A DNA stretch of 64,000 bases from Bordetella flabilis. GTDB taxonomy: Bacteria; Pseudomonadota; Gammaproteobacteria; Burkholderiales; Burkholderiaceae_B. The stretch spans positions 3,224,001-3,288,000 of the forward strand of contig NZ_CP016172.1 of assembly GCF_001676725.1 (NCBI RefSeq). Reading direction: 5' to 3'. Below are positions 10,726-26,548 of this stretch, piece by piece. Position 1 is the first letter of the stretch. Each line of letters opens with the position of its first letter. The notes under the pieces were generated by a model. The model was given only the letters and a program-made list of their open reading frames with translations. It made no database searches and was not told the DNA's origin. Position numbers and translations under genes: made by a program.

Positions 10726-12042
10726 TCAGACGCCGCGGCCGAACCAGCGCCGGATGCGCGCCCACAGCACGTGGAAGAACATGCCGGAGGCATTGAACGA
10801 GGCCGGCGCGGCATCGCCGCCGCCCTCCATGCGGGCCGCCACGTTGCGGCCGAAATCGGCGATCATGCGGCGCACGAAGTCCTGCACCAGCCCGGAACGC
10901 GAAAACTGCGCCAGCGGGCCTTGCAGGGAGTATGCAAGCTCGACATGGACGCGGGCACGGTCGGCGCCGGCAGCCTCCACGCGGTACACGATGTCGCCGT
11001 TGGCGCGCGATCGGCTCAGCGTATCCTGGCCCGCGCCGCGAAACACCGCCCGCATCGCGGCGTCGTCGCGCTCCAGCCGCGCGGCGCCGTTGAACGCCGC
11101 GCGCATGGGACCGAACTTGACGGACACCGTGCCCTTGACCCGTTCACCCTGCTGTTCTTCGATGCTCGCGCCGGGCAGGCAGGCCGCCACGGCGGGAAGA
11201 TCCGCCATGAAGGCCCATACGCGCGCGGCCGGAAACGGCACATCGAACATGCCGTCGATCTGGTTGGTCTTGCCGGCGCCGGGCTGGGCCGTGGCCGGCG
11301 CGGTCCGCGCCGCCGTGCCCGCGGCCGCAGCGGATGCCGCGGCCGGTGCCCTGGGCGCCGAGGCGCCGGGTGGCATCGCCGCGCCGGACGGCGTTCCCGA
11401 CACGGCCGGCGCCGCCGCGCCCATGCCCGCCGACGAGGCTGCAGCGCCACCCCGTGGCACGTCCGACCCGGACGGCGTGAACGCCATGAATACCCGCTGC
11501 CCCGGGACGGCGACCGGCGCCGCGCCGCGGCCCTGCGCCAGTGCCGCGCGCAAACCGTCGACGTCCGCATCGGGCTGTTCGCGCAGTTCGCGCAGCACCG
11601 ACATGATGGCGCCCACGATGCCCATATATCCCGTGCAGCGGCACAGGTTGCCGGACAGTTCGACGCGCACGCGCGCCTCGTCCGCCTCCGGCAGCCGCAG
11701 CACGATATCGCGCGCCGTGGCCAGCATGCCCGGCGTGCAGTAGCCGCACTGCAAGGCGTGATGGCGGTTGAAGGCCTCGCGCAGCCGCCGCATGACGGGG
11801 TCGGCCTCGTAGCCTTCGATGGTGGTCACCCGCCTGCCTTCGCAGGCCACCGCGTAGGAGATACAGGACCGCACCGGCTCGCCGTCCAGCAACACTGTGC
11901 ACCCGCCGCACACCCCATGCTCGCAGCCCAGGTGGGTCCCGGTCAGCCGCAGCCGGTCGCGCAGGAAATCGCCCAGGTGCATGCGCGGCGGAGCGTCGTC
12001 CACCACCGGCGCGCCATTCACTTCCATCGTCACTTGCGTCAT
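10726..12042 (-). CDS. Fused 2Fe-2S subunit (CoxS-type) and CoxG/SRPBCC domain of a molybdenum hydroxylase; candidate picolinate dehydrogenase subunit
   Basis: 438 residues in three parts. Residues 1-150 are a complete two-cluster CoxS subunit: plant-type cluster at Cys40, Cys45, Cys48 and Cys60, second cluster at Cys99, Cys102, Cys134 and Cys136. Residues about 185-255 are an Ala/Gly/Pro-rich linker. Residues about 258-405 resemble CoxG/SRPBCC carbon-monoxide-dehydrogenase subunit G (DGMFDVPFPAARVWAFMADL, later GPLAQFSRSGLVQDF). The C-terminus ends in a short hydrophobic/basic segment (FFHVLWARIRRWFG) that could touch the membrane. CoxG proteins aid maturation or membrane attachment of these enzymes. 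The gene follows the FAD subunit by two bases. Confidence 0.9.
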   Translation of the reverse strand: MTQVTMEVNGAPVVDDAPPRMHLGDFLRDRLRLTGTHLGCEHGVCGGCTVLLDGEPVRSCISYAVACEGRRVTTIEGYEADPVMRRLREAFNRHHALQCGYCTPGMLATARDIVLRLPEADEARVRVELSGNLCRCTGYMGIVGAIMSVLRELREQPDADVDGLRAALAQGRGAAPVAVPGQRVFMAFTPSGSDVPRGGAAASSAGMGAAAPAVSGTPSGAAMPPGASAPRAPAAASAAAAGTAARTAPATAQPGAGKTNQIDGMFDVPFPAARVWAFMADLPAVAACLPGASIEEQQGERVKGTVSVKFGPMRAAFNGAARLERDDAAMRAVFRGAGQDTLSRSRANGDIVYRVEAAGADRARVHVELAYSLQGPLAQFSRSGLVQDFVRRMIADFGRNVAARMEGGGDAAPASFNASGMFFHVLWARIRRWFGRGV

Positions 12043-12044
12043 TG

Positions 12045-12881
12045 TTATCGTCCTTCACCCGTCACCTGCGCCAGGCAGCGCGCGATGGCCGCTGCGTGCA
12101 GTTGCCGGTGTGCATCGTCCCGGTCGGGCATCACCGCCGCCACTTCCTGCGCGATGGCGCCCGCTTCCACGGCGGCGGCGCCGTCCTGCGCCACCTGCGC
12201 CGCCAGGGCCGGCAACAGGCGCGGCGGGCCATCCAGGGCGCCCAGCGCGATGCGCGCCTGGGCGCTGGCCGGATCGAACCAGGCGGCACAGCTGGCTTCG
12301 GCGAACTCGCCGGTCTTGCGGCAAAACTTGTAATAGCCCCAGCGGGACTGCGCGCCGGCGACCGGCACGCACACGCCCTGGATCAGCTCGTCGTCCCGCA
12401 CGGCGGTCGTATAGGCGCCCTGCATCAGCGCGTCCGCGTCGACGACGCGCACCCCGTCGCTGCCCGCCAATTCGACACGCGCGCCGAGCGCCGCCATGAC
12501 GACCACCCAATCCGCGGCCGGATCCGCGTGGGCCAGGCTGCCGCCGACCGTGCCCCGGTTGCGCACCGCGCGATATGCAATGCCGGCCGCGACCTGTTGG
12601 AGGGGAGAACCGCGCAGAATGTCGTGCACGCCGTCCTCGATCTGCGCGTGCGTCACCGCCGCGCCCACGCGGATGGTGTCGCCGTCGCGCTCCACGGCAC
12701 GCAGCGCCTCGATGCCGGAAATATCGATGACCACCGCCGGCCGCGCCAGGCGCAGGTTCAGCATGGGGCCGAGGGACTGTCCGCCCGCCATCAGCTTGGC
12801 CAGCCCGGCATGGGCCTGCAGCGCGTCGATCGCCTGCCGGACCGACGTCGCGCGGATATAGTCGAATTTCGCCGCTTTCAT
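12045..12881 (-). CDS. FAD-binding subunit (CoxM type) of the molybdenum hydroxylase; candidate picolinate dehydrogenase subunit
   Basis: 278 residues. The FAD-binding motifs of the family are visible: AGGQSLGPMLNLRLARP near residue 32 and TVGGSLAHADPAAD near residue 111. An AGGAGC ribosome site precedes the ATG. The gene lies between the large Mo subunit (8-base gap) and the CoxS-CoxG fusion (2-base gap), so the enzyme is the usual L-M-S heterotrimer with order L, M, S. It should carry electrons from the iron-sulfur clusters to the external acceptor. Confidence 0.93.
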   Translation of the reverse strand: MKAAKFDYIRATSVRQAIDALQAHAGLAKLMAGGQSLGPMLNLRLARPAVVIDISGIEALRAVERDGDTIRVGAAVTHAQIEDGVHDILRGSPLQQVAAGIAYRAVRNRGTVGGSLAHADPAADWVVVMAALGARVELAGSDGVRVVDADALMQGAYTTAVRDDELIQGVCVPVAGAQSRWGYYKFCRKTGEFAEASCAAWFDPASAQARIALGALDGPPRLLPALAAQVAQDGAAAVEAGAIAQEVAAVMPDRDDAHRQLHAAAIARCLAQVTGEGR

Positions 12882-12889
12882 GATGCTCC

Positions 12890-15286
12890 TCAGGCGGCGC
12901 GCGCGCGCTCGGTGGCCTGGCGCGCCTGGCCTTCGGCGATGGCCTGCAGTACGCGCACCGGCGTTAGCGGCGTATGCGCGAGCTCGGCCGCCCCGACTGC
13001 CCGCAAGGCATCGTTCACGGCGTTGAACAGCACGGCCGGGGGCGCGATGGCGCCGCCCTCGCCCATGCCCTTGGCGCCGAACTCGGTGTGCGGCGACGGC
13101 GTCTCGAAGTGATGCATGCGCATGTGCGGGATTTCCGTCGGGCCGGGCAGCATATAGTCGGCAAGCGTGGAGGCAAGGGGTTGGCCGTTGGCGTCATACG
13201 GCGTTTCCTCGTAGAAGGCCGTGCCGATGCCCTGCGCGATACCGCCCATGGTCTGCCCTTCGACCACCATGGGGTTGATCATGGTCCCGCAGTCCTCGAC
13301 GACGACGTAGTCGAGGATCTCCACCGCCCCCGTGGCCGGGTCGACCGCCACCGTCGCCGCCTGGCTGGCGTAGGTAAAACAGCCGGTATCCACCTTGGGT
13401 TTGTAGCCCACGGTCACTTCCAGGCCGCTGGTATCGACATCCGCGGGCAGCAAATGCGGGCGCAGGTACCAGGCGTCGGCCACCTCGTCCATGGAGACCG
13501 AGCGGCCTTGCGCCAGGAAGCGCCCATCGGCCAGTTCGACGTCCGCCGGCGTGGCCTGCAACAGGTGCGCCGCGATATGGACCGCCCGCGGCAATAGGCG
13601 CTTGCAGGCCTGCGACACGGCGCCGCCGGACATGACCAGCGAGCGCGAGGCGTAGGTCCCGGTGGAAAACGGGGTCTGGCCGGTATCGCCGTGCACGACC
13701 TTGATGCGCGCCACGGGAATTCCCAGGATTTCGTTGGCGATCTGCGCGAACGTCGTTTCCATGCCCTGCCCGTGCGAATGCACGCCGACCCTGACTTCCA
13801 GCCCGCCGTCCGGCGTCACGCGCACGGTGGCCTGGTCGAATCCGGGAATGACCGGCGTGCCCCACGTGGCGAACACGGACGTCCCGTGCGCCGCCTGTTC
13901 GGTGTAGGTGGCCACACCGACGCCCAGCAGCCGCCCGTCGGCAAGCCCCTGCGCCTGGCGGGCGCGCACGCCTTGCGCGTCTATCATTTCCAGGGCCTTG
14001 CGCAGGCTGGCCGGATAGTCGCCGCTGTCCAGGTGCTTGTTCGTGACATTGACGTACGGCATCTGTTCGGGCTGGACCAGATTCTCCAGCCGCACCTCCC
14101 ACGGCTCGCGGCCGACCTCGCGCGCGATGGCGTCCATGGTCAGTTCGATGGCGAAACACACGCCGGTGCGGGCCACGCCACGGTAAGGCACGAAACCCGG
14201 CTTGTTGGTGGCCACCGCGCGCGTCACGCAGCGGTAGCCCTTGAAGTTGTACGGGCCCGGCAGGTTGCCCACCGCCTGGCCGGGCTCCAGCCCGATGGTG
14301 AAAGGCCACACCGAATACGCGCCGCCGTCGACGGTGATGCGCGCGTCCAGCGCCAGCAGCTTGCCGCGCCGGTCGGCGTACGCCACCATCTCGTAATGGT
14401 GCTCGCGCGAATTCGCGCCCGCCGTCAGGTGCTCGCGGCGGTCCTCGATATAGCGGAACGGCCGCCGGTAGGTCTTGGCCAGCCAGGCCACGCACAGTTC
14501 TTCCTGCTGCAGCACGCACTTGTAGCCGAAGGCGCCGCCCACGTCCGGCGATATCACGCGCACGCGTCCCTGCTCCAGTCCCAGGGTCTGCGCCAGGATG
14601 CTGCGGATCATGTGAGGCACCTGCGTGGCGCTGTACACCACCAGCTGGTCGCCCTGGTGGTCCCAGTAGGCCAGCACGGCCTTGCCTTCCATCGGCACCA
14701 TGCACTGGCGCGCGAGACGCATCTGGCGCCGCACGATCACGTCGGCCTGGGCGGCGTACGCGTCGAACTCCCTGTCCGCGTTCAAGGTGACGAAGACATT
14801 GTCCTTCCACTGGTCATGCACCAGGTTGTCCGTGGCGGCCTGCGCGGAAAACACATCGGCATAGACAGGCAGGTCTTCATAGTCGACATCGATGAGTTCG
14901 GCATGGTCTTCCGCCTCGGCCCGCGTGGGCGCGAAGGTCATGGCCACCGGCTCGCCGACGAAGCGCACCTTGCCGCTGGCCAGCGGCGGCTGCGCCGACG
15001 ACTGGTAGGTGGGCAGGCTGGAATCCGCGACGATGTCGGCCGCATCGGCCATCTGGTCGCGCAGGATGACACAGCCCGCCACGCCAGGGTCGACGCGGAC
15101 GTCGACGATACGCGCATGGGCCAGCGGGCTGCGCAGGAAGGCGACCTCGCACAGGCCCGGCATCGCCATGTCGGCGACGAAATTTCCCTTGCCGTGCAGG
15201 TGTCGGGCGTCCTCCTTGCGTGGCACGCGCGCCCCGATCCCTTCGGGCTTGCCGGCGCGCGTCCCGTGCGCATGTTCCGTCGTCAT
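12890..15286 (-). CDS. Molybdopterin-binding large subunit (CoxL/XdhB type); candidate picolinate 6-hydroxylating dehydrogenase
   Basis: 798 residues from the ATG ending at 15286, which has a clear GGAGG ribosome site; the longer open frame upstream overlaps the TRAP receptor gene and is rejected. Aldehyde oxidase/xanthine dehydrogenase motifs are present, including VGGAFGYKC and the catalytic-glutamate region GAKGMGEGGA near the C-terminus. The loop that is AYxCSFR in true CO dehydrogenases reads PYRGVAR here, so this is not a form I CO dehydrogenase. It would hydroxylate a ring carbon next to nitrogen using water. Beside a 2,5-dihydroxypyridine pathway and a four-component Rieske enzyme, picolinate to 6-hydroxypicolinate (PicA) is the best assignment; nicotinate or another pyridine acid is the alternative. 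Confidence 0.88.
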   Translation of the reverse strand: MTTEHAHGTRAGKPEGIGARVPRKEDARHLHGKGNFVADMAMPGLCEVAFLRSPLAHARIVDVRVDPGVAGCVILRDQMADAADIVADSSLPTYQSSAQPPLASGKVRFVGEPVAMTFAPTRAEAEDHAELIDVDYEDLPVYADVFSAQAATDNLVHDQWKDNVFVTLNADREFDAYAAQADVIVRRQMRLARQCMVPMEGKAVLAYWDHQGDQLVVYSATQVPHMIRSILAQTLGLEQGRVRVISPDVGGAFGYKCVLQQEELCVAWLAKTYRRPFRYIEDRREHLTAGANSREHHYEMVAYADRRGKLLALDARITVDGGAYSVWPFTIGLEPGQAVGNLPGPYNFKGYRCVTRAVATNKPGFVPYRGVARTGVCFAIELTMDAIAREVGREPWEVRLENLVQPEQMPYVNVTNKHLDSGDYPASLRKALEMIDAQGVRARQAQGLADGRLLGVGVATYTEQAAHGTSVFATWGTPVIPGFDQATVRVTPDGGLEVRVGVHSHGQGMETTFAQIANEILGIPVARIKVVHGDTGQTPFSTGTYASRSLVMSGGAVSQACKRLLPRAVHIAAHLLQATPADVELADGRFLAQGRSVSMDEVADAWYLRPHLLPADVDTSGLEVTVGYKPKVDTGCFTYASQAATVAVDPATGAVEILDYVVVEDCGTMINPMVVEGQTMGGIAQGIGTAFYEETPYDANGQPLASTLADYMLPGPTEIPHMRMHHFETPSPHTEFGAKGMGEGGAIAPPAVLFNAVNDALRAVGAAELAHTPLTPVRVLQAIAEGQARQATERARAA

Positions 15287-15306: not shown

Positions 15307-16410
15307 CTACTTGGCTTGAGCGCGCGCCACCTCGGCGAACGTGTAGTTGTCCAGCGCGTTTTCGGCCACGCGGAACCAGCCCGCCTCGTCTTGCTGGAAC
15401 TTTTTCCAACCGGGATACAGGGCCTTGAAATCCGGGTTCCTGGCCGACAGATCTTCCCAGAGCTCCTGCGACGCCTTGTACGCCGCGTCCATGACTTCCT
15501 TGGGAAAATACCGTACCTTCGCGCCGTTGGCGATCAATTGCCGCAGGGCCTGCGGGTTGCGGGCGTCGTAGTTCGCCAGCATCTTCATGCTCTGCTCGCC
15601 GGCCGCGCATTCGAACGCCGCCTTGTACGATTCCGGCAGCGCTTCCCAGGCCTTGTCGTGAACCATGCTGGTAATCGAGGCGCTGCCCTCGAACCAGCCC
15701 GGCGCGTAGTAGAACGGCGCGACCTTGTCGAAGCCCAGCTTGGCGTCGTCATAGGGGCCGATCCATTCGGCCGCGTCGATCGTGCCCTTCTCCAGCGCCG
15801 GGTAGATATCGCCCGGCGGAATCTGCTGCGGGATTACCCCGAGCTTGGACAGCACCATGCCGCCGATGCCGCCGATGCGCATGTTCAGCCCGTTCAAGTC
15901 CGCAACCGACTTGATCTCCTTGCGATACCAGCCGCCCATCTGCACGCCGACGTTGCCGCAGACGTGGTTGACGATGCTGTACTTCTTGTACAGCGCGCGC
16001 AACTGCTGCAAGCCGCCGCCATAGTGGATCCAGGCATTGTGCTGGCGCGCGTTCAGGCCGAAGGACAGGCCGGTATCGAAGGTCAAGGCGGTGTTCTTCC
16101 CGATATACGCGGTACTGAGGACGTGGTTGCATTCCACCGTACCGTTGCTGACCGCGTCCATGTTCTGTGCCGAGGGCACCAGTTCGCCGCCGGGAAACGG
16201 GCGTATCTCGAACTTGCCTTCCGTCAATTGCGAGACGCGCTTGCAGAGTTCGTCCGCCGAGCCGTAGATGGTGTCCAGGCTCTTGGGCCAACTGGTGGAC
16301 ATGCGCCAGCGCACGGCAGGATTGGCTTGTGCCAGGGCCGGAGCGGCCACGGCGGCGAGGCCCGCGCCCGCGGCGCCGGCTGCCTGCGTAAGGAAACGGC
16401 GTCGTTGCAT
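15307..16410 (-). CDS. TRAP transporter receptor, Tat-exported, FcbT1/TakP type
   Basis: 367 residues from the ATG ending at 16410, preceded by AAGGAGT. The N-terminus MQRRRFLTQAAGAAGAG is a twin-arginine signal, usual for the mannitol/chloroaromatic TRAP receptors. The mature start WRMSTSWPKSLDTIYGSADE and the later DAAEWIGPYDD are typical of this class. It is the first gene of the minus-strand run and lies directly downstream of two MarR boxes (16474-16505). Its class matches the TRAP permeases at 5741-8027, which lack their own receptor, so it probably feeds them. Likely ligand: picolinate or a related acid. Confidence 0.9.
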   Translation of the reverse strand: MQRRRFLTQAAGAAGAGLAAVAAPALAQANPAVRWRMSTSWPKSLDTIYGSADELCKRVSQLTEGKFEIRPFPGGELVPSAQNMDAVSNGTVECNHVLSTAYIGKNTALTFDTGLSFGLNARQHNAWIHYGGGLQQLRALYKKYSIVNHVCGNVGVQMGGWYRKEIKSVADLNGLNMRIGGIGGMVLSKLGVIPQQIPPGDIYPALEKGTIDAAEWIGPYDDAKLGFDKVAPFYYAPGWFEGSASITSMVHDKAWEALPESYKAAFECAAGEQSMKMLANYDARNPQALRQLIANGAKVRYFPKEVMDAAYKASQELWEDLSARNPDFKALYPGWKKFQQDEAGWFRVAENALDNYTFAEVARAQAK

Positions 16411-16473: not shown

Positions 16474-16505
16474 TAAGTACACTGACCTGTTAGTCAGCAT
16501 ACTGA
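16474..16505. promoter_or_regulatory. Pair of PicR-type MarR operators upstream of the TRAP receptor gene
   Basis: Two 12-base boxes, TAAGTACACTGA (16474-16485) and TCAGCATACTGA (16494-16505), with centres 20 bases apart, i.e. about two helical turns on one face of the DNA. They match the consensus TCAG-N4-CTGA seen at other sites in this window and the TCAG-N4-CTNN motif reported for PicR. Confidence 0.75.
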
Positions 16506-16743
16506 CAGAGTTTTTGAGTGTCAACGATGATTACCCCTGTATTCGGGCGATCCCTGATGCGCACGGAAAACGCGCGCCACGGTGGTTCACGCCTGCATCG
16601 TCCTGGCGCATCGCCGCACCATTTCAACCCTATAAATACGAGGTGGCGCGGTATGTCGCCGGTTTTCCGCGCGCATACCCGGAGCGGCGATGCGGGTACT
16701 GCCGCCCCCCGGGAAATCCCTAGGACGTGGCATGTTTTTATGG

Positions 16744-16777
16744 GCAGTACACTGAACACATTTATTCAGCATACTGA
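16744..16777. promoter_or_regulatory. Pair of PicR-type MarR operators overlapping the start region of the Rieske ferredoxin gene
   Basis: GCAGTACACTGA (16744-16755) and TCAGCATACTGA (16766-16777), centres 22 bases apart. The second box ends 10 bases before the ATG at 16788 and reaches the ribosome-binding zone, so a bound repressor would block initiation or early elongation of transcription. Confidence 0.75.
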
Positions 16778-16787
16778 CGAGAACACG

Positions 16788-17099
16788 ATGAACTGGATAA
16801 GAATCGCATCCGCGGATGCACTGGACGACGACGAAGTGATGGCGGTCGACGCGGAGGGCCGGCAGTTCGCGCTGTATCGCAGCGACGGCGAGTTCTTCCT
16901 GTCCGACAACATCTGCACCCATGCCCATGCACTGCTGTCGGATGGCTACCTGGAAGACGGCTGTATCGAATGCCCTCTGCACCAGGCGCGCTTCGATATC
17001 AAGACGGGCAAGGCGCTTTGCGCCCCTGCCACGCGTGACATCCGCGTCTATCCCGTGAAGGTCGACGGCGATGCGGTGCTGGCCGACCTGGGCGAATAG
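16788..17099 (+). CDS. Rieske [2Fe-2S] ferredoxin component of a four-component hydroxylase (candidate PicB component)
   Basis: 103 residues from ATG 16788; the upstream frame extension crosses the operators and is rejected. Rieske ligands are clear: Cys43-x-His45 and Cys62-x2-His65 (CTH and CPLH). It is the first gene of a plus-strand operon with reductase, oxygenase large subunit and small subunit, together a complete ring-hydroxylating system. In the pic cluster of A. faecalis JQ135, PicB is described as a four-component 6-hydroxypicolinate monooxygenase, and gene order here agrees. It shuttles electrons from the reductase to the oxygenase. Confidence 0.92.
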   Translation: MNWIRIASADALDDDEVMAVDAEGRQFALYRSDGEFFLSDNICTHAHALLSDGYLEDGCIECPLHQARFDIKTGKALCAPATRDIRVYPVKVDGDAVLADLGE

Positions 17100-17103
17100 A
17101 CGT

Positions 17104-18381
17104 ATGGCTCAACCCGCCTCCATCGTTATTGTCGGCGCCGGCCAGGGCGGCGCCATGGCCGCGGCGGCCCTGCGCGGCCTCGGTTATGGCGGCCGGCTCA
17201 CACTGGTGGGCCGCGAGCCGCATCCGCCGTATGAACGGCCGCCCCTGTCCAAGACCGTGCTGCGCGACGCGCAGGCCGAGGCGACGGGGACGATACATCC
17301 ACCGGCGTTCTACGCCGAACAGGACATCGCGCTGATCCAGGGCATCGACGCCGTGGCCCTCGATCGCGGCCGGCGTGAGGTCCGCCTCGCCAACGGCACC
17401 GCCCTGCCCTACGATCGCTGCCTGCTCGCGACGGGGGGCGACGCCCGTCAATTGCCGGCCACGCCGCGGGGCACCCCGGGCGTGCACTATGTACGCACAT
17501 TGGATGATGCGCGCCGCTTGCGCGACGGCCTGCGGCCGGGCGGGCGTGTCGTCATCGTCGGCGGCGGATTCCTCGGGCTGGAGGTGGCTTCCACGGCCCT
17601 GGACGCCGGTGCCGATGTCGCGCTCGTGGAAACCGCCGACCGCTTGATCGCCAATGCGCTGCCCGCGCCCATTTCGGCCTGGCTGGCCGCGCGCGCGACC
17701 GCGGCCGGCGTCGCCTTGCACCTGGGCGCCCGCATCGCTTCACTGGCCGCGCACGGCACGCAGGCGCCGGCCGGCCTGGTGCTGGACGATGGCCAGGCGC
17801 TGCACGCCGACGCCATCGTGGTGGCCATCGGCCTGGTTCCTGAAGTCGGCCTGGCGCGCGCCGCCGGGCTGGAACTGGACCCGCAGAACGGCGGCGTTCG
17901 CGTCGACGCGCACTGCCGCAGCTCGGACCCGGACATCCTGGCGATCGGCGATTGCGCCAGCCAGCACCGCGATTGCCTGGGCCGCCATGCGCGCCTGGAG
18001 TCATGGCAGAACGCCAATGAACAGGCGCGCGTGGCGGCCGCCGTCATGCTGGAACAGGAACCCACGCCCGCGGCCTACCCCTGGTTCTGGACCGACCAGT
18101 TCGGCTGCAATATCCAGATGCTGGGCCTGCCCGCGGCCGACCTGGCCTACGTATGCCGCGGCAGCGCCGAGCCGGGCGCGCCTGCTCCCAGGCTGGTCTG
18201 GCTGGGCCATCGCGACGGCATCCCGGTGCACGGCGTGGCAGTCAACGCGCCCGGCGACCTGCGCCAGTTGCGCGTGCTTTTCGAACGAGCGGTGCCCATC
18301 GACCCGGCCGGCTATGCCGACGAATCGACCGCGCTGAAACCCTGGATCAAGGCCTGCCAGCAGGCCGCCGCGGCGGCGTAA
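17104..18381 (+). CDS. FAD/NADH-dependent ferredoxin reductase component (candidate PicB component)
   Basis: 425 residues. The N-terminal FAD-binding motif reads VIVGAGQGGAMAA, the central NADH motif VIVGGGFLGLEVAS and the C-terminal FAD motif ILAIGDCA, the standard order for ferredoxin reductases of class IIB/III Rieske systems. The ATG at 17104 lies four bases after the ferredoxin stop, so the two are co-translated. It takes electrons from NADH and passes them to the Rieske ferredoxin encoded immediately upstream. Confidence 0.93.
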   Translation: MAQPASIVIVGAGQGGAMAAAALRGLGYGGRLTLVGREPHPPYERPPLSKTVLRDAQAEATGTIHPPAFYAEQDIALIQGIDAVALDRGRREVRLANGTALPYDRCLLATGGDARQLPATPRGTPGVHYVRTLDDARRLRDGLRPGGRVVIVGGGFLGLEVASTALDAGADVALVETADRLIANALPAPISAWLAARATAAGVALHLGARIASLAAHGTQAPAGLVLDDGQALHADAIVVAIGLVPEVGLARAAGLELDPQNGGVRVDAHCRSSDPDILAIGDCASQHRDCLGRHARLESWQNANEQARVAAAVMLEQEPTPAAYPWFWTDQFGCNIQMLGLPAADLAYVCRGSAEPGAPAPRLVWLGHRDGIPVHGVAVNAPGDLRQLRVLFERAVPIDPAGYADESTALKPWIKACQQAAAAA

Positions 18382-18418
18382 TACCGGCCGGCGCTTACGC
18401 ATACGCGAGGAGCTTTTC

Positions 18419-19708
18419 ATGTACCAATCCCAAACCGTCATCGGCCGCACCGAGTCCGACAAGGACATCGACCTGGCGCAATGCGTCTGGCCCGAGGACG
18501 CGCTGCACGCCATCCCCGATTGGGTCTATACCAGCAATGCCGTCTACGAGCGCGAAATGGAGCGGATCTTCCGTGGAAGGACGTGGAACTACGTCGCGCT
18601 GGAAGCCGAGATTCCCAACGCCGGCGACTACAAGCGTTCCTACGTCGGACCGACGCCCGTGGTGGTATCGCGCGCCGAGGACGGCTCGGTGCATGTCTTC
18701 GAGAACCGCTGCGCGCACCGGGGGGCGGAATTCTGCCGGCACGGCCAGGGCAATACCAGGGAATTCGTCTGCCCTTACCACCAATGGTCGTATGACCTGA
18801 AGGGCAACCTGCAGGGCATCCCGTTCAAGCGCGGCGTCAACCGCGAAGGCGGCATGCCCAAGGACTTCCGCAACGACGACCATGGCTTGCGCAAGCTGCA
18901 CGTGACGACGCGCCACGGCGTGGTGTTCGCCTCGTATCGAGACGACGTCGAACCCATCGACGAATACCTGACGCCGGAAATCCTGGCCGACTTCGATACC
19001 GTCTTCCCCGGCAAGAAGCTGACCATACTCGGTTACTACCGGAACGAATTGCCGTGCAACTGGAAGATGTACCACGAGAACCTGAAGGATCCCTACCACG
19101 CTACCCTGCTGCATTCCTTCCTGGTGGTCTTCGGCCTGCTGGTCGCCGGCAATAAATCCGCCATGCTGGTCGACGCCGCGCACGGCCGCCACGGCACCAT
19201 GGCGTCGGCCAAAAGCGAAGACAAGTACGCGAAGGTCAGCGACGAGAACAAAAAGGAAATGCGGTCCTTCCACGACGGCCTGCGCCTGCGCGACGACCGC
19301 TTCCTGGAATTCGTCAAGGAGTTCGATTCCCCCTGGTCGGTCACCATGCAGACCGTCTGGCCCAACCTGGTCGTGCAGCGCGAGATGAACACCCTGGGCG
19401 TTCGGCATATCGTGCCGAATGGACCGGACAGCATGATCATGCAGTGGACGATGTTCGGCTATGAGGACGACACGCCGGAGATGACCCGCCACCGGCTGCG
19501 CCAGGGCAACCTGATGGGGCCGGCGGGCTTCCTGGGGCTGGAGGACAACGAAGCCATGAAGTTCGTGCAGGAAGGCGTGCGCCGGTCCACCACGGACGTG
19601 AACGTGCTGAAGCTGGATTCCGGCAAGCTGGGTACCGCGACCAACCTGATATCCGAGTCGGCCATCCGCTCGATGTACCGTTACTACCGCTCCGTGATGG
19701 AACTATGA
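18419..19708 (+). CDS. Rieske oxygenase large (catalytic) subunit; candidate 6-hydroxypicolinate 3-monooxygenase
   Basis: 429 residues after a strong GAGGAG site. The Rieske centre is Cys98-x-His100 and Cys118-x2-His121; the mononuclear iron ligands are visible as Asp224 with His227 and His232 in ENLKDPYHATLLHSF. This is a ring-hydroxylating oxygenase alpha subunit. In the proposed pathway it adds a hydroxyl at C3 of 6-hydroxypicolinate. The oxygenase class is certain; the substrate is inferred from the cluster. Confidence 0.92.
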   Translation: MYQSQTVIGRTESDKDIDLAQCVWPEDALHAIPDWVYTSNAVYEREMERIFRGRTWNYVALEAEIPNAGDYKRSYVGPTPVVVSRAEDGSVHVFENRCAHRGAEFCRHGQGNTREFVCPYHQWSYDLKGNLQGIPFKRGVNREGGMPKDFRNDDHGLRKLHVTTRHGVVFASYRDDVEPIDEYLTPEILADFDTVFPGKKLTILGYYRNELPCNWKMYHENLKDPYHATLLHSFLVVFGLLVAGNKSAMLVDAAHGRHGTMASAKSEDKYAKVSDENKKEMRSFHDGLRLRDDRFLEFVKEFDSPWSVTMQTVWPNLVVQREMNTLGVRHIVPNGPDSMIMQWTMFGYEDDTPEMTRHRLRQGNLMGPAGFLGLEDNEAMKFVQEGVRRSTTDVNVLKLDSGKLGTATNLISESAIRSMYRYYRSVMEL

Positions 19709-20220
19709 GAACACAATTCCCCTATGCCCCCCGCCGCATCGATCCGGCCCGCGCGATCGCGCTGCGCCAGGAGATCGAGGAGTTCAACGCCGACTATTGC
19801 GCAGCGCTGGACGCCAACGAGATAGAAAGCTGGCCGGATTTCTTCACGGAAGACGCCCTGTATCGCGTGACGTCGCGCGAAAACGCGAACCGCGGCTTGC
19901 TGGTGGGGCTGGTCTACGCAGAAGGCCGCGACATGATGCACGACCGGGCGGTGGCGATTTCCCGCACGCAGATGTTCGCGCCGCGCTACATGCGCCACCT
20001 GGTCGCGAACACGCGCGTCATTGATGAATCCGACGCGGGCATCGAAGCGCAGTCGTCCTTCCTGCTGATGCAGACGCTGGTCGAAGGGCCGACCACGCTG
20101 CACCTGGCAGGGTTCTACCACGATGTCTTCGTGCGGAACGAAGGACGGTTGAAGCTGAAGGAACGCCAGGTCATCTACGACACGGAGATCCTGGCCAACG
20201 ACCTGGTGTATCCGGTATAG
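19705..20220 (+). CDS. Ring-hydroxylating oxygenase small (beta) subunit
   Basis: 171 residues, start overlapping the large-subunit stop as ATGA. The sequence fits the cone-shaped NTF2-like beta subunits of Rieske oxygenases: an N-terminal helix (IALRQEIEEFNADYCAALDA), a WPDFFTEDALYRV segment and a C-terminal beta region ending ILANDLVYPV. Its role is structural, completing the alpha-beta oxygenase. It is the last gene of the plus-strand operon and converges with the PhzF gene 22 bases further on. Confidence 0.92.
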   Translation: MRTQFPYAPRRIDPARAIALRQEIEEFNADYCAALDANEIESWPDFFTEDALYRVTSRENANRGLLVGLVYAEGRDMMHDRAVAISRTQMFAPRYMRHLVANTRVIDESDAGIEAQSSFLLMQTLVEGPTTLHLAGFYHDVFVRNEGRLKLKERQVIYDTEILANDLVYPV

Positions 20221-20229
20221 CGGCGGCTC

Positions 20230-20254
20230 GGGCAGGCGTGGCTCATGCCTGCCC
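20230..20254. terminator. Bidirectional hairpin between convergent oxygenase and PhzF genes
   Basis: Perfect 8-base arms GGGCAGGC (20230-20237) and GCCTGCCC (20247-20254) enclose a 9-base loop in the short convergent gap, partly overlapping the end of the PhzF gene. No T-run follows on either strand, so its role as a terminator is tentative. Confidence 0.45.
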
Positions 20255-21157
20255 TGCCAGGTCGAAGGTTCCGCTCATCGCACTGGCGCATCGGCCTCCG
20301 ACTCGCACCGACGGCACGCCGTCCATCGTGTCATAGTGCGCCAGCAGCAGGCTGGGCCGTCCCATGTCCACGCCCTGCCGCACGCGCAAGCTCAGGCGCG
20401 GCGCCGATGCCAACGCGGCCAGCAATGCGAGGGTCGCGCCCGTGGCGCTGCCGGTGGCGGGATCCTCCGTCATCCGCGCCGTGAACATCCGCGACTGCAG
20501 GTCGCATGCAGGCCCGTCGCGGTCGGCGCCCGTATCGCGCGTATACGCGTAGATCGACACGGCGCCATCGAGCGGCAATGTCGCCTTGTAGGCGACCGGG
20601 TTCGGCGTGCAGGCGCGCAGCGCGTCGCGCGATGCCAGCTCCACCACCAGGAATGGCAATCCCACCGAGACGACCTGCGGGCGGTGCGCGTCCTGGCGGA
20701 TACAGGATGGGTCCAGGGACAGGCATGCGGCGACCTTCTCGGCGGCCACTTCCGCGCGCCGCGACAAGGGCTCCGGCGCGGTGAGCTCTCCGCCCACGAC
20801 GGTGTCGCCCTCCTTGATCTGCCGCACCGGGACCAGCCCCGCGCCTTCCTCGAAAAGCAGCGTCTGCGGCAACGCGGCGCCCGCGTCCGCCGCCTGCCGT
20901 GCGAGGACGAAAGCGGTACCGATGTTGGGATGACCCGCGAAGGGTATTTCGCGCGATGGGGTGAATATCCGCACCCAGGCGGTATGCGCGGGATCGCGCG
21001 GCGGCAGCACGAAGGTCGTCTCGCTGTAGCAGAATTCCGCCGCGATGCGCTGCATCTGCTCCGTGGACAGCCCTTCGGCGTCGAGCACGACGGCGACCGG
21101 ATTGCCCTCGAACGGGGTATCGGAGAACACATCGGCCGTCACATAGCGGCGTTTCAT
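20243..21157 (-). CDS. PhzF-family isomerase/epimerase-like protein
   Basis: 304 residues from the ATG ending at 21157, with AGGGAGC upstream. Typical PhzF features are the N-terminal DVFSDTPFEGNPVAVV, the conserved acid/base glutamate at position 46 (YSETTFV), FAGHPNIGTAFVL and the C-terminal DPATGSATGA. PhzF proteins isomerise trans-2,3-dihydro-3-hydroxyanthranilate; many homologues have unknown substrates. It lies 165 bases downstream of the maleamate hydrolase gene and may be the last gene of the pyridine operon, but no step of the known picolinate route needs it. Confidence 0.9.
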   Translation of the reverse strand: MKRRYVTADVFSDTPFEGNPVAVVLDAEGLSTEQMQRIAAEFCYSETTFVLPPRDPAHTAWVRIFTPSREIPFAGHPNIGTAFVLARQAADAGAALPQTLLFEEGAGLVPVRQIKEGDTVVGGELTAPEPLSRRAEVAAEKVAACLSLDPSCIRQDAHRPQVVSVGLPFLVVELASRDALRACTPNPVAYKATLPLDGAVSIYAYTRDTGADRDGPACDLQSRMFTARMTEDPATGSATGATLALLAALASAPRLSLRVRQGVDMGRPSLLLAHYDTMDGVPSVRVGGRCASAMSGTFDLAGQA

Positions 21158-21322: not shown

Positions 21323-21952
21323 TCAACGGCCCTGCGGGCCTATCGTGCCGAGCGCCGCGTCCCGCGTCATGACCGTGGCGTACTTCTGCTCCATGTCGAA
21401 CAGATTCGCTTCATGGGGAGCCAGCGCCCGGTCGCCCACGCAGTCCGATACCACCAGGGGCCGGAAGCCATACTGCATGGCGTCCACCACGCTGGCGCGC
21501 ACGCACCCGCTGGTGACGGCGCCCGCCACCAGCAGCGTCTGCACGCCGCGCTGGGCCAGCCAGGCGGCCAGGCCGGTGCCGAAGAACGCCGACGGCACCG
21601 TCTTGCGCACGATCAGTTCGCCGGCGCGCGGCGTCAGGTCCGGCACGATGGCGCTGCGGGCGTCATGTTCCTTCAGCGTCAGCATGCCGGGCACTTTCAA
21701 GGTGAAGATGTTCGCATCGGCGCCATCGTCGGCGAAGACGATGCGCGTGTGCGCCACCGGCCAGCCCTGCTCGCGCGCGTGGGCCAGCAGCGGCACCGTA
21801 TTGGCGATGGCCTGCGCGATGTTGCCGCCGCCGAACACGGCCGGATCGGCGAAACCGTTGACCAGATCGACGATCAAGAGGCCGAAGGGAGGCCGCGGCG
21901 CCATGGCGGCGCCGAAGCCCTGTCGTTCATACACTTGTGCCTGGCTTTCCAT
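21323..21952 (-). CDS. picF: Maleamate amidohydrolase (NicF/PicF), isochorismatase-like fold
   Basis: 209 residues. The cysteine-hydrolase triad is visible as Asp29, Lys117 and Cys150 (TSGCVRAS), with the positions expected for NicF-type enzymes. The start (ATG ending 21952) follows AAGGAAGA. The reaction is maleamate plus water to maleate plus ammonia, the nitrogen-release step of the 2,5-dihydroxypyridine branch. Its neighbours encode the steps before it (deformylase, dioxygenase) and after it (maleate isomerase), which makes the assignment strong. Confidence 0.93.
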   Translation of the reverse strand: MESQAQVYERQGFGAAMAPRPPFGLLIVDLVNGFADPAVFGGGNIAQAIANTVPLLAHAREQGWPVAHTRIVFADDGADANIFTLKVPGMLTLKEHDARSAIVPDLTPRAGELIVRKTVPSAFFGTGLAAWLAQRGVQTLLVAGAVTSGCVRASVVDAMQYGFRPLVVSDCVGDRALAPHEANLFDMEQKYATVMTRDAALGTIGPQGR

Positions 21953-22035: not shown

Positions 22036-23073
22036 CTATCTCTCGTTGACCACCTTGCCGTCCCGCACGACTTCCTGCCCATCCAGCCGCACGGTGCAGC
22101 GGCGCAGCGGAATGTCGATATGGCAGGCGGTGGTACGGGATCCGCCCGCTTCGTTGTTCGGGCCCAGCGAAAACAGGAAGTTGCCCTCGTAGGCGCGCGC
22201 GTCCATGCCCAGTGTCGCTTCGCGGTCGTAGAGCGACAGCGTGCTCCAATGGGCGCGCGGCTGCAGGCCCCAGCCGATGTGCGAAATCGCGTAGGCTTCC
22301 GGATCGTTGAAGCTTTCCATGTAGGTCCGCAGCAGCTCGGCGTCCACCCCGCCTTCTATAGCCGTGGCATAGCCGTTTTCCACCGTCAGGACCACCGGCT
22401 CGGTGACATACGACTTCTGCGGCAGCAGGATGTCGCCACGGTCGATCACAATGGTGCCGTTGGCGCCGCCTTCGTTGGGGAACGTCAGCACGAAGCCGCT
22501 GGGCCAGTGGTCCCAGCGTCCGGGCTCGTCCACGAAGCCGTACTCGCTGATGACGGGGAACTCGCCCAGCGGCAGATTCAGCTCGGTGCCGGCCGCGGAA
22601 GCCACCGTCATCTCGCGGGATTCCTGGATGCGGGCCGCAGCGGCCTTCACGCGCGCACGATCCGCCTCGGTGGGAACCAACCGGGTCAAGACCTCGGGCG
22701 GCTCGACCGCCAGCAGGATTTTGGTTCCGCCCTGCAGGATGTCGTGCTGCTCTGGCGAGAACAGCAGCGTCATCAGGTCCAGCACCAGGTCGCTGGCCTT
22801 CAGGGCCGCCATGGCCGCCCGGTTTCCGGTCAGCGGCGTGGTACCCAGGTAGGCCAGCGAATCGCGGCTGAGCGCCTTGTCCCCATTGACCGGCGGCAGG
22901 TCCAGCCGGTTCACCACCGCGCCCATGTCCTGGCAGGCGATCAAAGCCGTCGAAAGCGTCTGCAGATGCGTTGCAGCGCCGGTCAGAATGGTGACCGTCT
23001 GCCCGGCCTTCAACCGGGACAATTCCAGCACCTGTTTCCAGGCACGTATCATTTCATAGTCGCTGACTGGCAT
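22036..23073 (-). CDS. picD: 2,5-dihydroxypyridine 5,6-dioxygenase (NicX/PicD)
   Basis: 345 residues from the ATG ending at 23073 (AAGGAGC upstream). The sequence follows NicX throughout, including the segment EYGFVDEPGRWDHWPSGF, and the iron ligands fall at His265, His318 and Asp320, the numbering known for Pseudomonas NicX. It opens the pyridine ring of 2,5-dihydroxypyridine to N-formylmaleamate using Fe2+ and O2. It lies 26 bases after the deformylase gene that uses its product. The symbol picD follows the picolinate cluster; nicX is the nicotinate-pathway equivalent. Confidence 0.95.
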   Translation of the reverse strand: MPVSDYEMIRAWKQVLELSRLKAGQTVTILTGAATHLQTLSTALIACQDMGAVVNRLDLPPVNGDKALSRDSLAYLGTTPLTGNRAAMAALKASDLVLDLMTLLFSPEQHDILQGGTKILLAVEPPEVLTRLVPTEADRARVKAAAARIQESREMTVASAAGTELNLPLGEFPVISEYGFVDEPGRWDHWPSGFVLTFPNEGGANGTIVIDRGDILLPQKSYVTEPVVLTVENGYATAIEGGVDAELLRTYMESFNDPEAYAISHIGWGLQPRAHWSTLSLYDREATLGMDARAYEGNFLFSLGPNNEAGGSRTTACHIDIPLRRCTVRLDGQEVVRDGKVVNER

Positions 23074-23099: not shown

Positions 23100-23945
23100 C
23101 TATTCCGGCAGGCGCGCACCCAGGAAGTCGCCGAAGGCGCGGTAGAAGCCGGGCTCGTTGTCCCACGGGATCATGTGACCGGCGTCGGCCACGCGGACAT
23201 GCTGCGTACCTGGCTTGAGCGCCTGGATCTCCGCCACATCCTCGTCGCCAACCACGTCGCCGCGCGCGGCCGTTACCAGCAACAGCGGGACTTGCACCGC
23301 CTGCAGGTTGGCATGGATATCCTGGGTATGGAATTCCTCGAAACTCTGGCGTATGGCGCGCTCGTCGCAGGTGTGCAGCCACTGCGCGCGCAGCCGCAGT
23401 TGCTCCTCCGTCCAGGTCGGGCAGAAGCGCCGCATTTCCTCGACGCCCATGCCGTGGCGCGCCTGCGCGATCGAATCGACATACCAGGGCAACTGCGACG
23501 GGTACGGCCGCCGGCCGGGACCGGACACCGGCGGATCGACCGCGACGACGCGCGCCAGCCCGGCGGGATGCCGGCTGGCCGCACGTATGGCGATGCGTCC
23601 GCCCATTGAATGGCCGACGAGGCTATAGCGCTCCAGGCCGAGCGCGCGGGCCAGCGCGATGACGTCTTCCGCCTGCGCATCCAGGCCGTAATCCAGGTCG
23701 GCGCCGGCCTGCGACAGCCCGCGGCCGCGCACGTCCAGCACATAGGTATCGAAAACCTGGCCGAACCGCTCGCCGACGTATCCCCAGGTGACCGCCGGGC
23801 TGGTGATGCCCGGCACGATGAGCACGGGGTCCTTGCCCGGCTGTTCGCCGCCGTAGCGCAGGTAATGCTGCCGGATGCCGTTGGCATGGACGTTGGCGCC
23901 GTACCGGAACGTACTGGCAGGTGAACCGGCCGTCTGGGAATTCAT
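23100..23945 (-). CDS. picE: N-formylmaleamate deformylase (NicD/PicE), alpha/beta hydrolase
   Basis: 281 residues, start chosen at the ATG ending at 23945. The N-terminal FRYGANVHANGIRQHYLRYG is characteristic of NicD. The nucleophile is Ser113 in GHSMGG, the acid probably Asp137 in VAVDPP, and the histidine lies in ADAGHMIPW near residue 257. It releases formate from N-formylmaleamate to give maleamate. It sits in the operon between maleate isomerase and the ring-cleaving dioxygenase. Confidence 0.93.
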   Translation of the reverse strand: MNSQTAGSPASTFRYGANVHANGIRQHYLRYGGEQPGKDPVLIVPGITSPAVTWGYVGERFGQVFDTYVLDVRGRGLSQAGADLDYGLDAQAEDVIALARALGLERYSLVGHSMGGRIAIRAASRHPAGLARVVAVDPPVSGPGRRPYPSQLPWYVDSIAQARHGMGVEEMRRFCPTWTEEQLRLRAQWLHTCDERAIRQSFEEFHTQDIHANLQAVQVPLLLVTAARGDVVGDEDVAEIQALKPGTQHVRVADAGHMIPWDNEPGFYRAFGDFLGARLPE

Positions 23946-24029: not shown

Positions 24030-24782
24030 TCAATATGCGCCGGACAAGAGCGCGCCGGCGCCCGGGACGACGGGATCCAGCTTCAGCGCTTTCAGCATGG
24101 CGTACGTGGTGGCGACCGCGGCCGTGATGACGGGCTTGCCCGTCATGGCCTCCACCTGGGCGATCACCGGCAGCGAAGGCATCTGGACGCAGGCCGACAG
24201 CACGATGGCGTCCACCTTGGACGTGTCCATCTCGGCGACGATGGCCGGCAGCCGGGACGGGTCATGGCGCCCGACTTCCAGGTTGTCCGGGATTTCCAGG
24301 GCGCGCCAGTCCACCACCTCGTAGCCTTCGTTGCGGATGTAGTCCACGACCAGCTCGGTCAGCGGCTTCATATAGGGGGCGACCACGGCGATGCGGCGCG
24401 CGCCGATCACCTTCAGGCCGTCGATCAGCGCACCGGCGCTCGTGATCACGGGTGCGTCCGCGCCGTTCCTGGCGGTATGCGCCTGCAAGCGGCTTTCGGA
24501 TTGCCGGTGGTAGCCGTGTCCCATCGCCATGATGGCGACCAGGCAGGCATATCCCAGCACATCCACGCGCGCGTCGCTGAGTTCCACCGCGCAGCGGTCG
24601 GACTCCGCATCCATGGCGGCCAGTTCTTCCTTCACCACCTTCTTCATCCGCATGCGGCTGGAATGGAAGGTGAAACGCTCGGGCCGGATCTGCTGGCGCG
24701 CCAGCAGCATCGCCGGAATCTCCGTTTCCATGGTCGTGTTCGAACTCGGCACGATCTGGCCGATGCGGTAAGGGCGTTGCAT
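24030..24782 (-). CDS. picG: Maleate cis-trans isomerase (NicE/PicG)
   Basis: 250 residues, the usual length for maleate isomerase, with a strong GGAGGAG ribosome site before the ATG ending at 24782. The two catalytic cysteines of the Asp/Glu racemase-like fold are at Cys80 (GYACLVA) and Cys198 (LSACVQMPS); the opening RIGQIVPSSNTTMETEIPAM is family-typical. It converts maleate to fumarate, the last step before the citric acid cycle. In the published A. faecalis cluster name picG is not listed between C and E, so its position inside this operon is a local arrangement. Confidence 0.93.
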   Translation of the reverse strand: MQRPYRIGQIVPSSNTTMETEIPAMLLARQQIRPERFTFHSSRMRMKKVVKEELAAMDAESDRCAVELSDARVDVLGYACLVAIMAMGHGYHRQSESRLQAHTARNGADAPVITSAGALIDGLKVIGARRIAVVAPYMKPLTELVVDYIRNEGYEVVDWRALEIPDNLEVGRHDPSRLPAIVAEMDTSKVDAIVLSACVQMPSLPVIAQVEAMTGKPVITAAVATTYAMLKALKLDPVVPGAGALLSGAY

Positions 24783-24820: not shown

Positions 24821-25786
24821 TCAAAGCTTGAACAGCCGGCGCGCGTTGCCGTGACACACCATTTCGCGGGTCTGCGCGTCCATGGGCGCCTCTTCGATGA
24901 AGCGCGCGGCGGTGGCGGTGGACTCGTACGGATAGTCCACCGAGAACATTACGGCCTCCGGCCCCATCTCGGCAATCGCCCCCATCAGCGCATGAGGTGA
25001 ACATACACCGGATGTGGTGATCACGATATTGCTGCCTATGTACTCCGACGGCGCACGCTGCAGCGTGATGCCATGGGAGTAGACCGCGAAGCGGCTGTCG
25101 AAGCGCCAGCGCTGGAACGGCAGCCCTTCGCCCATATGTCCCAGTATCAGCTTCAGGCGCGGAAAGCGGTCGAACACGCCGCCGAACAGCAGGCGCAGCG
25201 CGTGCGACGCCGTTTCCACGCCCCAGCCCCATGACGCGCCGACGAGCTCCGGGTGTCCGGTATAGGCGTGGGGTATCACGTAGGGATCGACCGGGTGCAG
25301 GTACATCGGCACGTCCAGGTCCTGCATGCGCTCCCAGAAGGCATCGTAGGCCGGATCGTCGTAATAACGGCCATTGGTGTGCCCGTTGACCAGCGAACCC
25401 TTGAAGCCGTAGTGCCTGACACAGCGTTCCAGTTCGTCCGCCGCGGTCTTCGGATCGTGCATCGGCAGCACCGCGAAGCCGCCATAGCGCTTGGGATGGC
25501 GTTCGACCTGGCTGGCGAGGAAATCGTTGTTCTGGCGGGCGCGGCTGAGCGCCACGGCGGCATCCGGCTCCGCCTGGACCCCGGGGCCGGTCTGCGACAG
25601 GATGACGTAGTCGATGCCCGCCTCGTCCATTTCGCGCAGCCGCACTTCGTCGAAATCCTCCAGGCGCTTGGCAAGATCGGCGAACACGGCGGGATCGATA
25701 TGCTGCGAAAAGCTCTTGGTGTAATCCTTGAAACCGACCGCGGTGTAATGCTCCTCAAAGGCGATCTTGCGCACTTTGGCTGCCAT
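24821..25786 (-). CDS. picC: Amidohydrolase-2 family non-oxidative decarboxylase; candidate 3,6-dihydroxypicolinate decarboxylase (PicC)
   Basis: 321 residues from the second ATG (ending 25786), which is placed correctly after AGGAGC; a first ATG five codons upstream lies ahead of that site. Metal-binding elements of the gamma-resorcylate decarboxylase group are visible: FEEHY near residue 12, LHPVDP, LGHMGEGLPF and SVDYPYE. In the proposed route it removes CO2 from 3,6-dihydroxypicolinate to give 2,5-dihydroxypyridine, the substrate of the neighbouring dioxygenase. It is the first gene of the minus-strand operon and is preceded by three MarR boxes. Confidence 0.9.
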   Translation of the reverse strand: MAAKVRKIAFEEHYTAVGFKDYTKSFSQHIDPAVFADLAKRLEDFDEVRLREMDEAGIDYVILSQTGPGVQAEPDAAVALSRARQNNDFLASQVERHPKRYGGFAVLPMHDPKTAADELERCVRHYGFKGSLVNGHTNGRYYDDPAYDAFWERMQDLDVPMYLHPVDPYVIPHAYTGHPELVGASWGWGVETASHALRLLFGGVFDRFPRLKLILGHMGEGLPFQRWRFDSRFAVYSHGITLQRAPSEYIGSNIVITTSGVCSPHALMGAIAEMGPEAVMFSVDYPYESTATAARFIEEAPMDAQTREMVCHGNARRLFKL

Positions 25787-25840: not shown

Positions 25841-25852
25841 TCAGCGTACTGA
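25841..25852. promoter_or_regulatory. PicR-type MarR operator in the picC leader
   Basis: TCAGCGTACTGA, 55 bases upstream of the picC ATG. It is a single box, about 90 bases from the paired boxes further upstream, so it lies within the probable untranslated leader or overlaps the promoter. Confidence 0.7.
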
Positions 25853-25931
25853 ATATAGATTCGGATCTTGCCCTTGGATACGCGAGCCCGCGGCAAGTCG
25901 TGGGGCACGCCGGCCCGGCCGGCGCGATACG

Positions 25932-25963
25932 TCAGTATACTGAAGTTATAGTCAGCGTACTGA
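25932..25963. promoter_or_regulatory. Pair of PicR-type MarR operators upstream of picC
   Basis: TCAGTATACTGA (25932-25943) is a perfect 12-base palindrome and the best copy in the window; TCAGCGTACTGA (25952-25963) follows with centres 20 bases apart. The same pair spacing occurs upstream of the TRAP receptor gene. Confidence 0.78.
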
Positions 25964-26011
25964 CAAACTAGGGAAATCCTGGATATGGATCCGCGCTGCG
26001 CCGCGCAGGAA

Positions 26012-26548
26012 TCAAAAGGCGCGCAGTTGCGCGCGCCCGTATTGGTTATTGGCTTCCACCAGCGTGGACAGCAGCTTCATGAATACCTGGCGGTTACGCG
26101 GCGACAGCGGTTCCAACAGCCGCTGCTGCGCGCGCGCCATGCCGGTCTGCAGCAAGCCCATGATGCGCAGGCCTTCTTCGGTGATGACCGCCTGGCGCGA
26201 CCGCTTGTCGTTGGGGTTGACGCGGCGCTGGACCAGGCCACGCTCCTGCAGGCGCTTGATGACGTCGGCCGTCGTGGTGCGATCCAGTCCCAACTCCATC
26301 CCGAGAGCGGTCTGGTCCATCCATGGACTGAGCGATAACGCGGTCAATACGCCATACTGAACCGGCGTGATGTTCTGCGTCTTGCACTCCTCGAAGAACA
26401 TCGCATAGTGGATCTGGTTCAGCCGTCGCACCAGGTAACCGGGGCGCGCGAACAGTACTTGTTTTGCCGGCGCGAAGACCGTGTCGTCCGCCGCTGACGC
26501 GGCCGGAGCGCGTCGCCTTCTTGTCGTCTTGCTGTCCGCGTCTGCCAT
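26012..26548 (-). CDS. picR: MarR-family repressor of the pyridine cluster (PicR-like)
   Basis: 178 residues from the ATG ending at 26548; the open frame upstream crosses an operator and is rejected. It has a winged helix: NITPVQYGVLTALS, then the recognition region QTALGMELGLDRTTTADVIKRLQERGLV and a basic wing RRVNPNDKRSRQAVITEEG. The N-terminus is basic and disordered (KTTRRRRAPAAS). It lies next to picC, as picR does in A. faecalis. Boxes matching the reported PicR motif lie before its own gene and before three other transcription units, so it is probably an autoregulated repressor released by a pathway intermediate (6-hydroxypicolinate has been reported for PicR). Confidence 0.9.
   Translation of the reverse strand: MADADSKTTRRRRAPAASAADDTVFAPAKQVLFARPGYLVRRLNQIHYAMFFEECKTQNITPVQYGVLTALSLSPWMDQTALGMELGLDRTTTADVIKRLQERGLVQRRVNPNDKRSRQAVITEEGLRIMGLLQTGMARAQQRLLEPLSPRNRQVFMKLLSTLVEANNQYGRAQLRAF

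Follow-up and report, generated by a model that had tools for sequence, protein, structure and literature searches.

The 64,000-nucleotide stretch of contig NZ_CP016172.1 considered here (the window) contains a pic-type gene cluster, a set of genes matching those for the degradation of picolinic acid. All of the pic enzymes are present and intact, they stand in the map order stated by an earlier note on this DNA, and orthologues of every pathway step occur in pic clusters from named organisms. Gene families were assigned by Pfam and NCBIfam scans, and nearest solved chains by sequence comparison with the Protein Data Bank (PDB). The Rieske ferredoxin, for which no family-scan hit was used, was called from a motif in its sequence and from orthologues in synteny. 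The numbers of picA1 to picA3 and picB1 to picB4 are assigned by position, and picT is the receptor of a tripartite ATP-independent periplasmic (TRAP) transporter, so named by position only. Several likely starts fall inside the longest open reading frames (ORFs); for example, 15286 is a more likely start than 15610 for the large subunit of the molybdenum (Mo) hydroxylase, and picR probably starts at 26548. The genes for the enzymes are as follows.

10726..12042, minus strand: picA3-like (number inferred from position), [2Fe-2S] subunit of the Mo-hydroxylase with a CoxG domain fused at its C-terminus (PF01799, PF06240)
12045..12881, minus strand: picA2-like, Mo-hydroxylase flavin adenine dinucleotide (FAD) subunit (PF00941)
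12890..15286, minus strand: picA1-like, Mo-hydroxylase large subunit (PF02738, PF20256, PF01315; nearest solved chain 1t3q, quinoline 2-oxidoreductase)
16788..17099, plus strand: picB1-like, Rieske ferredoxin (CTHAH...CPLHQ motif; syntenic orthologues)
17104..18381, plus strand: picB2-like, ferredoxin reductase (PF07992, PF14759)
18419..19708, plus strand: picB3-like, Rieske oxygenase alpha subunit (PF00355, PF00848; 7c8z, salicylate 5-hydroxylase, E=3.5e-123)
19705..20220, plus strand: picB4-like, Rieske oxygenase beta subunit (PF13577, PF00866)
21323..21952, minus strand: picF, maleamate amidohydrolase (3ot4/3uao, titled putative isochorismatase, E=7.6e-97; Asp29, Lys117, Cys150)
22036..23073, minus strand: picD, 2,5-dihydroxypyridine 5,6-dioxygenase of the NicX type (7cn3, E=3.5e-120; His265, His318, Asp320)
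23100..23945, minus strand: picE, N-formylmaleamate deformylase (4l0c, 'Deformylase', E=2.6e-89)
24030..24782, minus strand: picG, maleate cis-trans isomerase (4fq7, E=2.4e-111; Cys80 and Cys198 line up with the solved enzyme)
24821..25786, minus strand: picC, 3,6-dihydroxypicolinate decarboxylase (3s4t/4qro, gamma-resorcylate decarboxylase, E=1.2e-76; His164, His217)

The upper pathway would begin with PicA and PicB. The Pfam domains point to a three-subunit Mo-hydroxylase, and the four plus-strand picB genes to a four-component Rieske system whose alpha subunit matches 7c8z; the earlier note had proposed both types of enzyme. The alpha subunit has Rieske motifs at residues 98 and 118 and a likely iron-site region at 219; it is 81% identical to that of Alcaligenes faecalis AU14, and its best named relative among the matches listed is from Achromobacter sp. 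(88%). Orthologues of the ferredoxin, all syntenic, are 71-76% identical in seven Achromobacter loci, and 77% and 81% in G108 and G109, the two nearest relatives found. The ferredoxin reductase has a match at E<=1e-120 in 39 of the 268 genomes of the family, and G108 (78%) and G109 (71%) are closest.

PicC was expected to be a decarboxylase of the gamma-resorcylate type, and 3s4t/4qro are indeed its nearest solved chains. By sequence, however, it groups with Bordetella homologues: among the matches listed, the named proteins are from Bordetella sp. (91%), B. genomosp. 9 (89%), and B. bronchialis (87%). Thus, the description of the DNA as Bordetella-like is likely right, yet the best named PicB alpha is the Achromobacter protein. 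A match of the Mo-hydroxylase or the decarboxylase to non-pyridine enzymes had been named in advance as a point that would count against a pic cluster, but this objection has no force here. The solved chain closest to the Mo-hydroxylase, quinoline 2-oxidoreductase, is a hydroxylase of an N-heterocycle, and for PicC the Bordetella grouping stands beside the gamma-resorcylate match. According to a 2023 paper (PMC10142695), His163 and His216 of PicC from Bordetella bronchiseptica RB50 are both essential, and a change to alanine abolishes activity. Both histidines are conserved in the window protein as His164 and His217, the numbers being shifted by one extra residue at the N-terminus.

All four enzymes of the lower pathway are found as well, and their solved-chain matches (7cn3, 4l0c, 3ot4/3uao, and 4fq7) bear out the NicX, NicD, NicF, and NicE homologues named earlier. 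The specified residues are present at the numbers given: His265, His318, and Asp320 of PicD align with the solved NicX, 7cn3, and Asp29, Lys117, and Cys150 of PicF align with 3ot4/3uao. These are the presumed catalytic residues, and 3ot4/3uao is presumably a NicF. PicF belongs to the isochorismatase family, and its match to 3ot4/3uao (7.6e-97) is far better than its match to PhzD (1e-5).

The picB genes (16788-20220) lie on the plus strand and all other pic genes on the minus strand, so picB and the TRAP receptor are divergent. The order given in the earlier note is right as a map; the note was silent on the switch of strand at picB, and its coordinates stop short of the full set of conserved transport genes. 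For comparison, genome contigs were scanned with the Rieske alpha subunit and the best 80 loci were kept. Many of these end at contig ends or at the 10 kb flank, and counts over them are lower bounds. The alpha subunit, picC, and picD occur together in 54 of the 80, the TRAP receptor is directly divergent from the ferredoxin in 26, and 16 have the block of ATP-binding cassette (ABC) transporter, picA, and picT. The full order from the ABC genes to picR is seen in 3/80 loci with picG and in 5/80 without it. Clusters of the same order are present on contigs named Achromobacter, Bordetella, and other Alcaligenaceae, and different orders also exist, for example in Cupriavidus and Burkholderia.

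The pic proteins of G108 and G109 are about 71-94% identical to those of the window. G108 (loci L129/L130) is collinear with the window, running from caiB through pic and the ABC and TRAP genes to fdhAB, with proteins about 75-94% identical. Its nucleotide alignments cover window positions 12-31000 at 80-85% identity with six gaps, and because of this collinearity over the same 31 kb, the gene order is far beyond chance. Just two of the gaps exceed 1 kb: 20225-21350, which holds phzF, and 4416-5741. The latter is a second local insertion relative to G108: between DctM and fdhA the window has a gene for an Rce1-like CAAX protease (4694-5554), which G108 lacks. FdhA is 91% identical in G108. A search of 19 genomes for fdhA gave no match at E<=1e-100, a result that reflects the genomes chosen.

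Among described clusters, that of B. bronchiseptica RB50 (bb0268-bb0283; PMC10142695) is like the window in its genes, as judged from the published description. The same source places picG between picC and picE in Bordetella, with picT and picB divergent, just as in the window. In RB50, picR and picC have two unknown genes between them, whereas the window has only a 225 bp gap; phzF, which the window carries, has 0 mentions in the main text of that paper. The enzyme set and written order of A. faecalis JQ135 are also those of the window, but its picG is away from the cluster (PMC10142695) rather than inside it. Sequence comparison with Alcaligenes was made with A. faecalis AU14 (L020) and Alcaligenes SORT26 (L023) in place of JQ135. 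AU14 gives 81% for PicB alpha (see above), 67% for the Mo subunit, and 74% for the TRAP receptor; SORT26 gives 70% for PicC, 77% for PicD, 70% for PicE, 75% for PicF, and 64% for PicR. Of the local differences from JQ135 that the earlier note had listed, only phzF is unseen elsewhere. The position of picG is already published for Bordetella (PMC10142695), and the transport genes recur in relatives.

These transport genes are the following.

5741..7507, minus strand: TRAP transporter DctM (PF06808, E=2.2e-92), beyond the coordinates of the earlier note
7410..8027, minus strand: TRAP transporter DctQ (PF04290, E=1.6e-20), syntenic in G108 and G109
8106..8879, minus strand: ABC transporter permease (PF00528)
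8876..9661, minus strand: ABC transporter ATPase (PF00005)
9658..10683, minus strand: ABC transporter NMT1/THI5-like substrate-binding protein (PF09084)
15307..16410, minus strand: TRAP substrate-binding receptor DctP (PF03480, E=1.1e-54), picT-like by position only, divergent from picB

The conserved unit therefore extends past the pic genes to about 5741 through the ABC transporter, DctQ, and DctM. The TRAP receptor is 92% identical in G108, 91% in G109, 86-87% in seven Achromobacter loci and L006, and 76-77% in L008 and L009. In 10 of 14 genomes (the exceptions being G006, G011, G012, and G015), the contig that carries picC also has a DctM homologue no more than about 17 kb away, and one is present at the G108 and G109 pic loci too. 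Picolinate is the predicted substrate of these systems, and no paper was found on PicT as a picolinic acid transporter. Elsewhere in the window there are four tripartite tricarboxylate receptor (TctC) genes (33284-34261, 49587-50609, 50708-51676, and 60015-61220), a type of gene that is presumably abundant in Bordetella. At 39402-42444 there is a molybdopterin oxidoreductase-like protein of 794 residues, and the one that follows it has a cytochrome c oxidase subunit II domain.

A MarR-family regulator gene lies near picC, and short palindromes accompany the pic promoters.

26012..26548, minus strand: picR, MarR-family regulator (PF01047, PF12802), syntenic and 94% identical in G108 and 87% in G109
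16474..16777: four TCAGNNNNCTGA-like palindromes between picT and picB (16474, 16494, 16744, 16766), two of the four exact, predicted PicR operators
25841..25963: three exact TCAGNNNNCTGA palindromes upstream of picC (25841, 25932, 25952), predicted PicR operators
26581..26592: degenerate palindrome upstream of picR, with 2 mismatches to TCAGTATACTGA

The window has 6 copies of TCAGNNNNCTGA in 64 kb where 0.39 would be expected, and none of 100 shuffles reaches 6. Five of these are located upstream of picC or in the picT-picB interval; the remaining one, at 6193, is within DctM. When up to 2 mismatches to TCAGTATACTGA are allowed, the count rises to 9, of which 8 fall in the promoter regions of picT/picB, picC, and picR; the 9 include three pairs spaced 20-22 bp. 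Across the 80 loci, promoter regions were defined as the stretches of up to 400 bp that precede the genes for PicT, the ferredoxin or alpha subunit of PicB, PicC, PicR, and the Mo subunit. These regions, 135.8 kb in all, contain 174 TCAGNNNNCTGA sites versus 31 in the other 1483 kb, an enrichment of about 60-fold, although the sites do not count as independent events because the loci are related. At least one such promoter site is present in 61 of the 80 loci, and in both G108 and G109 exact sites lie ahead of picC as well as in the picT-picB interval. The palindrome is the likely PicR operator. A TCAG-N4-CT type operator has reportedly been described for the PicR of JQ135. By the title of Xu et al. 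2022, this PicR is a MarR repressor.

Taken together, these features suggest a complete pic-type cluster that would serve growth on picolinic acid and that most likely lies on the chromosome of a Bordetella species; we put the probability of this at about 0.92. The pathway would begin with uptake of the substrate via the TRAP and/or the ABC transporter. By orthology to characterised enzymes, PicA would then hydroxylate picolinate to 6-hydroxypicolinate, PicB would convert this to 3,6-dihydroxypicolinate, and PicC would decarboxylate the product to 2,5-dihydroxypyridine. Ring opening by PicD would yield N-formylmaleamate, which PicE, PicF, and PicG would take to maleamate, maleate, and fumarate in turn. 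PicR, as a MarR repressor, may control the genes by binding the TCAGNNNNCTGA palindromes in the promoter regions of picC and of the divergent picT and picB.

Several points weigh against this assignment. The substrates of PicA and PicB are not provable from sequence, and their nearest solved relatives act on quinoline and salicylate; likewise, no solved PicC is among the PDB matches listed. The operator is the weaker part of the explanation, as 19 of the 80 loci are without an exact promoter-region site, some of them on truncated contigs. Those without one include A. faecalis AU14 (L020), whose picT/picB region, unlike that of the window, lacks an exact palindrome, as well as Advenella (L027, L032) and Variovorax L069-L071. 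Finally, the scan for other pathways covered the window, and a separate nicotinate pathway elsewhere could feed the same lower genes.

This last point leads to the idea that picD, picE, picF, and picG equally serve nicotinate or another hydroxypyridine, so that the cluster is a general funnel for 2,5-dihydroxypyridine. The same lower enzymes are reported in the hpo cluster and the nic cluster, and for RB50 two copies of picGEDF are reported, nearly identical and one per cluster (PMC10142695). However, in keeping with the earlier note, no NicC- or NicAB-like protein is found among the window ORFs scanned, and the lower genes are in synteny with picC, picB, and picA both here and in the relatives; we consider such a funnel very unlikely. 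It seems more improbable still, to the point of being hard to credit, that the cluster mainly serves a substituted picolinate or another pyridine carboxylate. The specificity of a Mo-hydroxylase whose nearest solved chain is quinoline 2-oxidoreductase is unreadable from its sequence, and the addition of phzF goes unexplained under picolinate. Yet the catalytic subunits are orthologous to proteins of Alcaligenes- and Bordetella-type clusters, and purified RB50 PicC converts 3,6-dihydroxypicolinate to 2,5-dihydroxypyridine while being inactive on gentisate and 2,3-dihydroxybenzoate (PMC10142695).

The main departure from the relatives, and the single real oddity within this picolinate cluster, is phzF.

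20243..21157, minus strand: phzF, PhzF-family isomerase-like gene (PF02567), a local addition within a non-homologous segment of about 20225-21350

Alignment with G108 and G109 defines the borders of this segment as a clean insert of about 1.1 kb. These two genomes are otherwise collinear with the window but lack phzF at their pic loci; in G108, picB4 and picF are only about 100 bp apart. None of the 80 loci, some of which end early at contig ends, carries the gene, so phzF as a general pic gene was rejected. Membership in a phenazine cluster was also ruled out, as no other phz genes are found among the window ORFs scanned. The gene itself is intact, its codon use resembles that of its neighbours, and its motifs SETTF, AGHP, and EDPATGS align to solved PhzF. 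Similarity to PhzF proper, trans-2,3-dihydro-3-hydroxyanthranilate isomerase (1t6k, 1u1v), is weak (E=1.4e-29), but the family is the same and the motif Glu, His, and Asp, whose role is presumably catalytic, are aligned.

The nearest PhzF proteins are two JGI sequences, P0121 (96%, on a 242 kb contig) and P0122 (89%, on a 239 kb contig), with which the window protein is firmly joined in a tree of 67 sequences (100/98). Contigs of these two lengths do not occur among the best 120 matches listed for the Rieske alpha subunit or the best 120 for PicC. The best named relative is from Burkholderia theae (76%), and the group is widespread, with its best named members in Burkholderia and Paraburkholderia. 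Placement on this Burkholderia side, apart from the Achromobacter and Bordetella paralogues, is weakly supported (86/49, 85/25), so horizontal gain is argued mainly by identity and by absence from the collinear relatives. The paralogues, 59-63% identical, are found in 7/7 Achromobacter and 4/9 Bordetella-group genomes searched, and the 1.5 kb on either side of them holds no pic gene. With a cutoff of E<=1e-115, set slightly past the values of these paralogues (1e-100 to 1e-108), the window type was found in 0/268 family genomes, with 8 candidates per genome scored and no positive control.

PhzF could be a recruited enzyme, the last of a picC-G-E-D-F unit, working as an isomerase or tautomerase on an unstable ring or ring-opened intermediate or on a substituted picolinate. 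Its gene is co-directional with picF and downstream of it, and the intact motifs and matching codon use agree with such a role. Its absence from the 80 other pic loci, some of them truncated, the lack of a TCAGNNNNCTGA site upstream, and the paralogues lying apart from pic genes in a widespread family speak against it, making recruitment unlikely. No sigma-70-like site for phzF is seen between 20150 and 21400. Most likely, phzF is a passenger or generic enzyme gained at the point where picB and picF converge, which fits its relationships and the absence of pic genes from the paralogue flanks. As to the mechanism of gain, insertion with a mobile element finds no direct repeat at the borders and no transposase among the ORFs scanned. 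In the available part of PMC10293998, phzF appears in a gene table and is linked to phenazine rather than to pyridine breakdown.

The core finding is of a known kind and essentially ordinary, because PMC10142695, the only paper found on Bordetella pic, already describes the cluster in Bordetella strains along with the activity of PicC. With the window, a further lineage of the Bordetella type is seen to have a complete pic cluster, and in its nearest relatives the conserved unit includes a full TRAP system and an ABC transporter. The TCAGNNNNCTGA palindrome, recurring in pic promoters of 61/80 loci, offers a testable candidate for the PicR operator. Lastly, the phzF insert offers a small example, open to testing, of how a catabolic cluster gains an accessory gene, and recruitment of PhzF, if true, would widen or speed the picolinate pathway.

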